Below are positions 241 to 15,692 of a DNA stretch of 64,000 bases, piece by piece. The notes under the pieces are model-generated. The model ran no database searches and was not told where the DNA came from. It saw only the letters and a program-made list of their open reading frames with translations. Source of the DNA: Rubripirellula obstinata. GTDB taxonomy: Bacteria > Planctomycetota > Planctomycetia > Pirellulales > Pirellulaceae. The DNA is taken from assembly GCF_001642955.1 (NCBI RefSeq), contig NZ_LWSK01000019.1:1-64000 (forward strand), given 5' to 3'. A program made the position numbers and the translations under genes. The first letter of the stretch is position 1. The number at the start of each line of letters is the position of its first letter.

Positions 241-1203
241 ATGGACGCCAACCTGTTAACCGATCAAGTCGCTGAGCCAACCAGGGTTCGTCAGGCACGG
301 CCGACGTCGGCGTCGCCGGTTCGCGTTCGCTGGGATTACGTGATCGTTTTTGGCGTCACGCATGTCTTTGCTCTGCTGATCTTTTTGCCGTACTTCTTTA
401 GCTGGACCGGCGTCGCGTGTTTTGCGATCAGCGTTTTTGTGTTTGGCTTGTTGGGGATTCCGATCGCCTTCCATCGCATGTTGGCTCACAAGAGTTTTAA
501 GTCACCAAAATGGTTTGAGCGAACGTTGGTGACGTTGGCGATGTGTACGGCTCAGGAAACGCCGGCCCGCTGGGTCGCCTGGCATCGCAAGCATCACAAC
601 CACAGTGACGAACGCGAGGATCCGCATTCGCCGCGAGTCAGTTTTTTCTGGTCGCATTTGGATTGGTTGTTCCACGAAAACATTTCGCCGCTGGCAACGT
701 TTTCGTTGTACCAAAAGTACAGCAAGGACATTTTGGCTGACCCGTATTATTTGTGGATCGAACGTTTGCCGCAGGCCGCCGGGATCATCTTTTTTGTTCA
801 CGCAATGTTGTACGCGTTGATCGCGGGCATCGGATCGGTGATCGCGTTTGGGTTCACGCCCGAAGCGGTTCAGATGACGGCCAGCATTTTTGTCTGGGGT
901 GTGATCGCGCGAACGGTTTACGTTTGGCATATCACTTGGGCTGTCAATTCAGTGACCCATTTGTTCGGCTACCGCACGTATGACACCAGTGATGACAGTC
1001 GCAATTGTTGGCCCGTCGCAATTTTGACGTTGGGCGAAGGCTGGCACAACAATCACCACGCCGACCCTGCCGCCGCAACGGTGCAACACCGATGGTGGGA
1101 ATTTGACCCGAACTATTACATCATCAAAGTGTTCAGTTGGTTCGGTTTAGCGTACGACATCATCGAACTCCGACACGTCCGCAAGGCGCGGGCAAGTCGT
1201 TAG
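241..1203 (+). CDS. Membrane fatty-acid (acyl-CoA type) desaturase
   Basis: A 320-residue integral membrane di-iron desaturase, expected to introduce a double bond into acyl chains and so adjust membrane fluidity. All three histidine boxes of the family are present: HRMLAH (78-83), HRKHH (115-119) and HNNHH (269-273), plus the NSVTH stretch at 236-240. Hydrophobic segments lie at about 33-77 and 180-225. I chose the ATG at 241; the frame stays open upstream to 91, but that part lies in repeat DNA. The stop codon overlaps by two bases the stop of the convergent Dop-like gene. Substrate (acyl-CoA, acyl-ACP or phospholipid) cannot be told from sequence. Confidence 0.9.
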   Translation: MDANLLTDQVAEPTRVRQARPTSASPVRVRWDYVIVFGVTHVFALLIFLPYFFSWTGVACFAISVFVFGLLGIPIAFHRMLAHKSFKSPKWFERTLVTLAMCTAQETPARWVAWHRKHHNHSDEREDPHSPRVSFFWSHLDWLFHENISPLATFSLYQKYSKDILADPYYLWIERLPQAAGIIFFVHAMLYALIAGIGSVIAFGFTPEAVQMTASIFVWGVIARTVYVWHITWAVNSVTHLFGYRTYDTSDDSRNCWPVAILTLGEGWHNNHHADPAAATVQHRWWEFDPNYYIIKVFSWFGLAYDIIELRHVRKARASR

Positions 1204-3050
1204 ATTTCCTCGGCAAAGTCCACTCGGCGTCTTGCTTTGCCGTTGCCGATCATTGCGTACGCCCATTCACTTTGCATCGTTTCGTCGCCGCCTGCGAATT
1301 CGCGGATCAGCCAACCTCGACGGGCGGCGGGTGAACCGGCGGGTGGCGATTTGCGGCGGCGTGCGATTTGTTTGTCATCGACCAAACTCAATTCTGGACG
1401 GCTTTCCATCAGCATGTAGTAGTAGCCTTCGTCGGAAAGTTCGTGATACCGCAGGTCCACTTTCTTGCGAGCCGCCCAGTGGTTCGTTGATGACTCGCTG
1501 GCGGATGGCGGGTCATGTTCAGAGAGCGTTTCCGGGTCCAGCGAATCCATCAGGTGCCGCTTGGTCAACCAATCGATCCGGCCGATCGCCAGTCCCGTGT
1601 CGGTCGCGTTTTTGCGAAAGCGGGCCGCGCCGTCGTAGAGTTCCTGCCACCGATACAGCACCAATTTGGCTTCGCCACGCAAGTTTGCTGGAACCGAATC
1701 CACGAACGCTCGGGCCGTCGATAGATACAGCTTTTGAATCTGCAGCGCCGACATCGGCCCCTGGTTCGTTGGCACTTTGGTCACCAGGTTCCAATCGGAA
1801 GCTAACCGATGAAGCGAATCGACAGGCTTTTGGACGATCGGTAAACCATGAGTGAAATTGGCCTCGATCATGTCCAGCAACAACGACACTGAACCGACTT
1901 TGACGTATTCGGCCAAGTCCGACATGTTGGAATCCGACAACGCGATCTGCATCCGCTGGCGACGGCGGAACATCTGCTTGGTTGACCCGAGCGAGAAGAA
2001 TGACTTCGCACAAAACTGACTAAGCCAATGACCAAAAACGTAGATCGGTCGCTCGCCGCGAAAGCCGCCCATGTGAGCGATCGAGTCGACCGCCATCGCC
2101 TTGGCACTGGTTTGATAACAACCATCGGGGCTAAGGTTTCCCGCACCGCACAACGCGACACGTGAAATCAACATCGCGGTCAAGTACTTACGTTGCCGGC
2201 GAAACGCGATGTGCTGGGCCACAAACGTCAACGTGATCACGGTCGGCAAATGAACCAGACGCAACAGCCCAACTAATGTGACCGACAACCATCCTGGCAT
2301 CGCTTCGTAGAACTCTTCGGACTGGCTGGCGTTTGCGTCAGTGCTGTCGCGGCCAAAATCGCTCTCATCAAAAAAGGAACCCGATTCAGTTTCATCTGCC
2401 GCACTTTTGTTTTTCGATTTCCTCAGCCGCGACAATCCCATCATGCCCAAGACAATCATCATCAACGGCATCGCCACCAGCAAGCTGATTGTCTGGATCA
2501 ACCACAACAACAAAACGAAGCAGCGATAGACCAACAGCATCACCCCGCTGCCGACTTCGGTTTCGTAGTTTTCGTGGCAGCCGTAAACATGCCCCATCGC
2601 ATCGCTGCTGTTTTTCAGAATTCGCAGATCGAACGATGTTTCAGAATCGGCGGTCGCTTCGGCTGCCAATTCATCGATCGAACGCTGGCACGCCAACAGT
2701 TCACTTGGGCTGCGGACTTCCGGCGTCGCGATTTCGACCAAACCACCCGGTTGCGACGACACCGACGGATGCGATTCAAAGCTGACCGCGCCGCCGTTGG
2801 CCAGAAACATTTGTTCGCGATCAAAAACACCGGCAACCGTCGGTTGTTCTCGCCGGATCGCTTCGCAGATTTGTTGGTAAACGAATCTGGCCGACGGCAA
2901 ATCTTCGATTTCCAACATTTGCGGGTCGGCCACCATGGTGGCGTATTCGGTTTCCAGGCCGATTAATCGCGAAACCAGCGGCCGGCGTGGCTGGACATGC
3001 AGCCGACGCCTCGCACGCAGATTTCTTTCGTTTCGACGTTTCTCCGCCAA
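1200..3050 (-). CDS. Dop/PafA-family (pupylation) protein with membrane insert
   Basis: This 616-residue protein belongs to the Pup ligase/depupylase family, which has a glutamine-synthetase-like fold. Matching motifs are GLETEYA (31-37), GHVYGCHENY (153-162), SRVALCGAGN (296-305), SDSNMSDLAEYVKVGS (372-387, close to the family GDANMSEVATYLKVGT) and VDLRYHELSDEG (531-542). The usual catalytic-loop LYVDxxxPEY is divergent (AVSFES then HPSVSSQ at 88-100). Between HENY and SRV lies an extra stretch of about 130 residues with hydrophobic segments at about 168-205 and 253-283, joined by an acidic Ser/Asp-rich linker. I infer that it spans the membrane. No Pup, proteasome or ARC/Mpa gene is visible in the window. 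The start is a TTG; the next ATG lies after the GLETEY motif, so TTG is preferred. Confidence 0.82.
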   Translation of the reverse strand: MAEKRRNERNLRARRRLHVQPRRPLVSRLIGLETEYATMVADPQMLEIEDLPSARFVYQQICEAIRREQPTVAGVFDREQMFLANGGAVSFESHPSVSSQPGGLVEIATPEVRSPSELLACQRSIDELAAEATADSETSFDLRILKNSSDAMGHVYGCHENYETEVGSGVMLLVYRCFVLLLWLIQTISLLVAMPLMMIVLGMMGLSRLRKSKNKSAADETESGSFFDESDFGRDSTDANASQSEEFYEAMPGWLSVTLVGLLRLVHLPTVITLTFVAQHIAFRRQRKYLTAMLISRVALCGAGNLSPDGCYQTSAKAMAVDSIAHMGGFRGERPIYVFGHWLSQFCAKSFFSLGSTKQMFRRRQRMQIALSDSNMSDLAEYVKVGSVSLLLDMIEANFTHGLPIVQKPVDSLHRLASDWNLVTKVPTNQGPMSALQIQKLYLSTARAFVDSVPANLRGEAKLVLYRWQELYDGAARFRKNATDTGLAIGRIDWLTKRHLMDSLDPETLSEHDPPSASESSTNHWAARKKVDLRYHELSDEGYYYMLMESRPELSLVDDKQIARRRKSPPAGSPAARRGWLIREFAGGDETMQSEWAYAMIGNGKARRRVDFAEEI

Positions 3051-3071: not shown

Positions 3072-3197
3072 AAGCTGTTAAACCGCGAGGGCATCGCCCA
3101 ACGCCGTGAAGGGTTTCTGGACTGTTTAACCGCGTGGGCATCGCCCCGCGCGTCCATGCGGGGCGAAACGCGCGGGGCGATGCCCACGCGGCTAAAC
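3072..3197. repeat. Family B GC-rich inverted repeat, copy 1, plus half copy
   Basis: 3124-3197 is an almost perfect palindrome. It reads gtttaaccgcgtgggcatcg outward-in, has cgccccgcgcgt and acgcgcggggcg around the loop, and ends in cacgcggctaaac. The flanking 3072-3123 carries a diverged half (gttaaaccgcgagggcatcg) that matches 166-215 in reverse complement. It lies between the divergent starts of the Dop-like gene and alaS, so it could affect both promoters. Related copies are at 15347-15406 and 15632-15692. Confidence 0.8.
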
Positions 3198-15346: not shown

Positions 15347-15406
15347 GTTTAACCGCGTGGGCATCGCCCCGCGCGTCCACGCGGGATGAAACGCGCGGGG
15401 CGATGG
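15347..15406. repeat. Family B inverted repeat, copy 2 (incomplete)
   Basis: The left arm is intact (gtttaaccgcgtgggcatcg then ccccgcgcgt). The right arm has acgcgcggggcgatgg but loses the outer end, passing instead into gctgggctgacgaaaacg, which resembles the reverse complement of the attttcatcagcccagg string found at the end of family D. It lies just after the DUF1207 stop codon. Confidence 0.75.
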
Positions 15407-15469
15407 CTGGGCTGACGAAAACGTTAGCGCGGAGGAAAGTTGGACGGCTCTGGGGGGGTGTGGCTGACC

Positions 15470-15634
15470 GGCCTCGGTGTTGATTGCAAATTGCAAAATG
15501 AACACTGAAAAATGTAAATTGACCAGCAAATACCGCTTCCCAAGAATTTTCAATTTGCAATGTTCATTTTGCAATTTGCAATGTTTGACTGGTTCGCGAA
15601 AAACATCACCCACCGCATTTTCATCAGCCCAGGC
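15470..15634. repeat. Family D palindromic element, copy 2
   Basis: Second copy of the 1-165 element, with the same boundaries at ggcctcggtg and catcagcccagg. The palindromic core is 15483-15582. Directly after it starts another family B hairpin, as at the beginning of the window. The near identity of the two copies 15 kb apart suggests recent duplication or gene conversion. Confidence 0.88.
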
Positions 15635-15692
15635 ATCGCCCCGCGCGTTCGGGGCCGCACGACGCGCGGGGCGATGCCCAACGCGGTTAAAC
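15632..15692. repeat. Family B inverted repeat, copy 3
   Basis: ggcatcgccccgcgcg pairs with cgcgcggggcgatgcc across a loop, followed by caacgcggttaaac, the usual outer end. The left outer arm is replaced by the end of family D. This lies in the 598-base gap between the DUF1207 gene and rpmB, which is made up mainly of repeats B, D, B and a half A. Confidence 0.75.

Follow-up and report, generated by a model that had tools for sequence, protein, structure and literature searches.

The window examined here, a 64,000-nucleotide stretch of DNA from the planctomycete Rubripirellula obstinata (positions 1 to 64,000 of contig NZ_LWSK01000019.1), carries near its beginning a gene encoding a homologue of the Pup ligase PafA and of the depupylase Dop, with a hydrophobic insert in the enzyme core.

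1200..3050, minus strand: membrane-insert Pup ligase (PF03136), 616 amino acids (aa), called from the open reading frame (ORF) and the profile match

The TTG at 3050 is the sole ATG, GTG or TTG codon from the upstream stop to the GLETEYA block and serves as the start of the 616 codons. An earlier note on this DNA had placed a Dop/PafA homologue at this position, and a search with the Pfam Pup_ligase profile PF03136 bears it out, with an E value of 8e-66 and 223 bits (gathering cut-off 25) for a match spanning protein residues 28-597 and model positions 1-438 of 441. The blocks on which that assignment leaned, GLETEYA, HENY, SDSNMSDLAEYVKVGS and VDLRYHELSDEG, are all found in the protein, as are two motifs described by Iyer et al. 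in 2008, GhExE in strand 1 and [HQ]x[NH] in strand 4. Neither NCBIfam equivalog is reached, the scores being 119 bits for PafA (TIGR03686, 551 required) and 113 bits for Dop (TIGR03688, 492 required). The closest named relatives, at 62-68% identity, are those of Rhodopirellula and Rubripirellula metagenome-assembled genomes (MAGs), and the enzyme is the sole PF03136 match in the host genome (6.58 Mb, listed as 99.99% complete). The gene stands between what we take, from their sequences, to be a desaturase-like ORF and an alaS-like ORF.

Core fold and active site

Conservation was read from an alignment of 70 sequences, and residues are numbered on this alignment (A4) and a 596-residue model, counted from window positions 1203-2990 on the minus strand. 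The AlphaFold2 model built from the same 70 sequences (596 residues; predicted local distance difference test 90.9, predicted template modelling score 0.91) keeps the glutamine-synthetase-like core of Dop and PafA, and Foldseek places Dop (4b0r, E 1.7e-27) first among structures of the Protein Data Bank (PDB), followed by the PafA-Pup complex (4bjr, E 4.4e-26). The predicted core is intact despite the insert. Of the two things on which the earlier identification hung, the profile match is found and the fold is predicted.

2931..2963, minus strand: core strand 1 (IGLETEYATMV), two Glu of which occur in all 70 rows
2775..2777, minus strand: Glu72 codon, aligned with the Asp proposed to be catalytic in PafA and Dop

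By analogy, the two invariant Glu of strand 1 would be metal/ATP ligands; the residues identical in all 70 rows are E13, E15, E86, E91, E140, R277, D353, D512, and H516. In canonical PafA and Dop, an Asp of the cradle loop is conserved and, according to the available text of PMC3511204, has been proposed as the catalytic base. This Asp is number 64 in PafA, by counting on the alignment with chain 4b0t, and its place is taken here by Glu72. The loop had been described as altered from the window protein, and the alteration proves to be an Asp-to-Glu exchange present in 69 of the 70 rows, with Asp in one (L125). Being common to nearly the whole family, the exchange is a trait of the family and does not point to decay.

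The membrane-like insert

From HENY to the SR of the SRV block, the window protein has 134 aa; the 70 rows have 104-178 aa, with a median of 125. The hydrophobic two-helix insert recognized there beforehand is recovered in the model as two long helical arms linked by a poorly predicted segment.

2565..2576, minus strand: HENY, the [HQ]x[NH] motif of core strand 4 (Iyer et al.), from sequence and alignment
2397..2546, minus strand: first insert helix, model residues 149-198 (50 residues), from model and alignment
2343..2396, minus strand: acidic linker at the insert tip, residues 199-216, modelled with low confidence and variable across the family
2208..2342, minus strand: second, returning insert arm, helices 217-230 and 233-261, from model and alignment

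Within the first arm, residues 157-187 are charged in at most 13% of rows at every position; in the second, Pro249 is invariant and position 244 is Arg or Lys in 83% of rows. The acidic linker is a feature of the window protein but not of the family, as alignment positions 199-203 are occupied in 13 of the 70 rows and positions 204-210 in 1-3 rows. Three hydropathy windows are seen in the window protein and 1-3 across the 70 rows, and the membrane segments may number two or four. The insert probably anchors the enzyme core at the membrane. When the window protein was compared with ten clade relatives, the ratio of nonsynonymous to synonymous differences per site (pN/pS, reported since the synonymous rate, dS, was high or undefined for window pairs) was 0.26-0.41 in the core and 0.47-0.62 in the insert; the enzyme is maintained under purifying selection on its core, whereas the insert is freer in sequence.

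A different arrangement is seen in nine genomes of the phylum (G080, G085, G097, G099, G140, G160, G197, G208, and G227), in which the PF03136 match stops near profile position 360 and resumes about 340-370 in the same frame. Their frames of 641-740 aa apparently hold another kind of insert at a different site of the enzyme.

A Pup-like tag gene accompanies the enzyme in most relatives examined

In a first survey of 30 family loci, in which small ORFs were selected by an ending in G[EQ], 24 loci have a complete small ORF (hereafter the tag) that precedes the enzyme gene on the same strand, with 16-196 nt between it and the enzyme match. The 24 aligned tags share an invariant Asp and a Gly-Glu end, the latter owing in part to the selection rule. 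Further upstream tags in L013 (complete) and L011 (cut by the contig end) bring the count to 26 of 30, and no upstream tag ORF was found in L025, L029, L030, and L032. What the loci with a tag hold is a small protein ending in G-[EQ] and encoded together with a Pup ligase. For a wider survey, a scan of genome contigs gave 123 relatives, of which 80 were kept; 54 of these have a tag ORF upstream on the same strand, each ending in GE, and they include Myxococcota, a Thermoanaerobaculia MAG, and Uabimicrobium, as well as L121, where the match is weak (0.022). A wider tag profile, which includes clade tags, adds Rhodopirellula europaea (L084) and Laterigemmans (L087), giving 56 of 80. The true distance between tag and enzyme reaches at most 410 nt (L140); L119 and L122 gave larger values because their enzyme match was split, and relative to the match of the contig scan their tags end no more than 2 nt away. 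With the first profile, no adjacent tag was seen in 26 of the 80 loci (L065-L085, L087, L088, L089, L102, and L117), and in L088, L089, and L102 the contig end cuts the upstream side. The tag was not recognized by PF05639 in the host search, nor by Pfam (4 tags), NCBIfam (9 tags), or PDB sequence searches; it is therefore termed Pup-like here and left outside PF05639. Besides the enzyme, the largest cluster of neighbouring proteins covers at most 9 of 81 loci.

The enzyme and the tag also occur together when whole genomes are compared. The PF03136 enzyme is present in 33 of 60 family genomes, and the tag profile (E <= 0.05) likewise matches 33, of which 32 are shared (counted by eye from the enzyme and tag tables); 16 of the 32 had supplied rows to the profile and 16 had not. 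The enzyme-positive genome missed by the profile (G059) has an overlapping upstream ORF ending in EAVGE, found by eye, so that the tag accompanies the enzyme in 33 of 33 genomes. Weak matches among the tags are those of G003 (1.2e-4; gene cut by the contig end) and G008 (0.006). The 27 enzyme-negative genomes gave no tag match at E <= 0.01, the match at 0.045 in one of them (G051) lying inside a 932-aa frame. The enzyme could in principle act on a small molecule or another amine, in the manner of a gamma-glutamyl ligase, with the small gene a mere neighbour or regulator. The fold is common to such ligases, e.g. the bifunctional glutathione synthetase and YbdK, both weak Foldseek matches. We nevertheless regard this as most improbable, because the small gene accompanies the enzyme in all 33 genomes, even when unlinked, with GE kept at the stop codon, and because Dop is far closer in structure than the gamma-glutamyl ligases (E 1.7e-27 versus 6.5e-5).

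Separate from this arrangement, three family genomes harbor a distinct pair of PF03136 enzymes scoring 111-133 bits, between which lies a small ORF of 67-92 aa ending in RRNxSGQ (L145, 8381-8659, minus strand; L146, 1898-2104, plus strand; L147, 8932-9135, plus strand). Neither Pfam nor NCBIfam names the small ORF of L147. The tail is reminiscent of UBact, and a candidate ARC-like ORF may lie nearby. A fourth genome (L148) has one such lower-scoring enzyme.

Relocation of the tag gene in the host and its clade

The six frames read directly upstream of the window gene showed no Pup-like ORF, and neither tag profile matched the contig of the window. A tag hidden at this place was considered and rejected, as the GGE there lies in another frame with no stop after it. 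The tag of the host is encoded on another contig (G000:C10:8631-8837, minus strand) in an open frame 68 codons long, which gives 66 aa when read from the first ATG and ends in RSNVGHDGE at the stop codon. A profile of the 24 tails, which had no row from the host genome, matches it at E 2.5e-4 as far as the final position ahead of the stop. PF05639 failed in the host (best 0.458, at another place); as the profile of adjacent tags succeeded, the reading that no tag exists was rejected. A second candidate on contig C269 (E 0.009) was discarded since no GE end appears in the frames read. We take the ORFs on either side of the host tag, from their sequences, to be hisA-like and rpsL-like, and in a genome of the same genus (L056), the tag stands beside the same hisA-like ORF. 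The absence of pupylation genes beside the enzyme, as the earlier note had it, therefore holds for the window but not as an absence of partners, given the adjacent tags of 56 of 80 relatives and the host tag on a different contig.

The tags of the clade lie elsewhere in the genome and mostly end in DGE. The wider profile was run on 20 genomes from the range L065-L088, and 17 proved to have a tag, which always ends in GE and in two cases stands beside the enzyme; G066, among the 17, had supplied a row to this profile. The three genomes lacking a match are G061, G068, and G079, the contig of the last starting at the enzyme (L088); L066 and L073 belong to genomes with no tag match, and the genomes of L076 and L081 were outside the 20 searched. 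In a tree made by a quick method, a single group of 22 unites the window enzyme, L065-L083 (no adjacent tag), L029, and L030, with 99% support in the Shimodaira-Hasegawa-like approximate likelihood ratio test (SH-aLRT). A single loss of linkage explains the unlinked rows, since they fall in this one group, and further moves are likely, as its sub-groups differ in the present neighbours of the tag. The tree was not rooted on three soluble homologues, since two of them share a branch of 7.6 changes per column and the third (7.1) is placed among the membrane enzymes. Together, these data demonstrate that the tag gene is retained even where its linkage to the enzyme gene has been lost.

The place that the Pup-like gene has in relatives is taken in the window by short repeats.

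3075..3197, no strand assigned: short repeats (30-bp direct and 30-bp inverted) at the site of the relatives' Pup-like gene, with a related repeat at 163-219

They belong to an interspersed short repeat with inverted arms and the core GGGCATCGCCC, which has 5 matches in the window versus 0.06 expected, with copies at 163-219, 3075-3197, and also 15359-15679. A stretch whose translation resembles that of the repeat occurs near the relocated tag in L053. In Rhodopirellula maiorica SM1 (L085, 2176-4063), the enzyme lies in two overlapping frames, owing to a frameshift or a sequencing error. That the clade enzyme is a decaying or repurposed relic, no longer paired with a Pup-like tag, would accord with the repeats in place of an adjacent tag gene, with this split enzyme, and with the score of the window protein, the third lowest (223 bits; range 218-303) among membrane-type matches in the search of 60 genomes. 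We consider a relic very unlikely, however, in view of the purifying selection on the core, the conserved ligands, and the GE-ending tag present in the host and in 17 of the 20 clade or near-clade genomes, beside the enzyme in two.

Proteasome partners in the host

No match to the pup_AAA profile of Mpa/ARC exceeded the cut-off in the host genome. Four weaker matches do not support an Mpa/ARC candidate either: the two best, tested as fragments, name FtsH first, and the other two are without identification. One host protein matches PF00227 (247 aa; L149, 6538-7281, minus strand), and its matched stretch of 189 aa has no NCBIfam name; it is possibly an Anbu-like protease. A pair of 20S proteasome and Mpa was thus not recognized in the host genome.

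Proposed function

Taken together, the data make it likely that the enzyme is a membrane-anchored ligase that joins the C-terminal Glu of the tag to amines, probably lysines of membrane-associated proteins, with no recognized Mpa or 20S proteasome. The core, taken as cytoplasmic, would bind ATP and Mg and phosphorylate the side-chain carboxylate of the C-terminal Glu of the tag; the activated Glu would then be passed to an amine, whose most likely source is a lysine in a protein of the membrane or close to it, and the insert would keep the core at the membrane. The direction of the reaction, the amine target, the purpose, and the membrane side are parts of this scheme that we infer. Because the tags found already end in Glu, no deamidase is needed, and because no 20S proteasome/Mpa pair was recognized, the mark probably has a regulatory role, or else a membrane protease such as FtsH reads it. 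The earlier proposal of a membrane-bound ligase or amidase acting on another small peptide came close, in that the peptide is a Pup-like tag, but an amidase is not favoured. As a long shot, the amine may be that of a membrane component, e.g. an aminophospholipid headgroup, in place of protein lysines, which would make the system a bacterial counterpart of Atg8 lipidation that marks or shapes the internal membranes of planctomycetes.

The traits that separate Dop from PafA are mixed in this enzyme. The Dop-loop is absent and the N-terminal part aligns continuously with PafA, whereas the alpha-loop region aligns with that of Dop apart from a single-residue gap (coil at model residues 307-314), and the ATPEC/ATPEV segment combines the Dop-type Pro (66 of 70 rows) with the PafA-type Ala (56 of 70). 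The available text of PMC7947786 reports that an exchanged alpha-loop and a deleted Dop-loop sufficed to give Dop ligase activity in cells; given this swap, the absence of a Dop-loop next to a Dop-like alpha-loop places the direction beyond what can be deduced from sequence alone. A Dop-like hydrolase, or a two-way enzyme, that removes or processes the tag alone or besides ligating it would agree with the alpha-loop, the mixed segment, the first place of Dop in Foldseek, and the higher score of Dop with the family profile (245 bits versus 196 for PafA). We judge this unlikely, because 28 of the 33 enzyme-positive genomes have one PF03136 match, which leaves no ligase for a pure hydrolase to oppose, because deamidation would be purposeless for tags that end in Glu, and because the Dop-loop is missing from an N-terminal part continuous with PafA.

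Several findings weigh against the membrane-anchored ligase. The family profile prefers Dop, which, with the Dop-like alpha-loop region, makes hydrolase activity possible, and the proposed catalytic Asp is replaced by Glu throughout nearly all of the family. The kinship of the tag to Pup is drawn from context, size, and the G-E tail, with no library match, and since the first 24 tags were chosen by their G[EQ] end, the tags found later by profile are the ones independent in this respect. Three of the 20 clade or near-clade genomes gave no tag match, and neither a target nor a conserved third gene was found at the 81 loci compared. What the analysis does show is family membership, a predicted intact core, conserved ligands, a membrane-like insert, purifying selection on the core, and a probable tag that is paired with the enzyme across the family and persists when unlinked. 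If conjugates form, they would constitute a bacterial ubiquitin-like mark at membranes, with a use other than degradation by the 20S proteasome.

Comparison with known systems

Iyer, Burroughs and Aravind (2008, PMC2588565) described, in the available text, Pup ligases of Rhodopirellula and Plesiocystis in which four membrane segments are inserted after strand 4 and which lack linkage to the proteasome, with an adjacent Pup and a linked gene for a membrane protein, and suggested modification of membrane proteins. The enzymes of Rhodopirellula baltica and Plesiocystis pacifica share with ours the Pup-ligase core, a hydrophobic insertion directly after strand 4, the lack of proteasome-gene linkage, and a Pup-like partner. 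Theirs are described with four transmembrane segments and adjacent Pup and membrane-protein genes, whereas for ours the model shows two arms, the tag is on another contig, and no conserved neighbour was found. The window enzyme belongs to the membrane Pup-ligase group predicted in that work, and the suggestion of a new use of the fold is not supported. Dop (PDB 4b0r and 7oxy) is the best structural match and is alike in the alpha-loop region; the window enzyme differs from it in lacking the Dop-loop, in its membrane insert, in the Glu at the site of the proposed catalytic Asp, and in a host with no second PF03136 enzyme. With PafA (PDB 4b0t and 4bjr), it shares the core fold, the metal ligands, and an N-terminal region with no Dop-loop, but it differs in the insert, the Glu for Asp, an alpha-loop that is not PafA-like, and a host in which no 20S proteasome or Mpa was recognized. 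The outgroup of the Dop/PafA tree in PMC7947786 is similarly a single Planctomycetes homologue related to both enzymes (about 29-31% identity), for which the available text mentions neither a membrane insert nor a tag gene. In the passages of open-licence PubMed Central literature searched, we met no experiment on a membrane Pup ligase without proteasome linkage, and no report of tag relocation, of Asp-to-Glu as a family trait, or of family-wide co-occurrence. The type of enzyme is known; the relocated tag, the Asp-to-Glu exchange, and a tag missed by the profile libraries tested are useful details of it.

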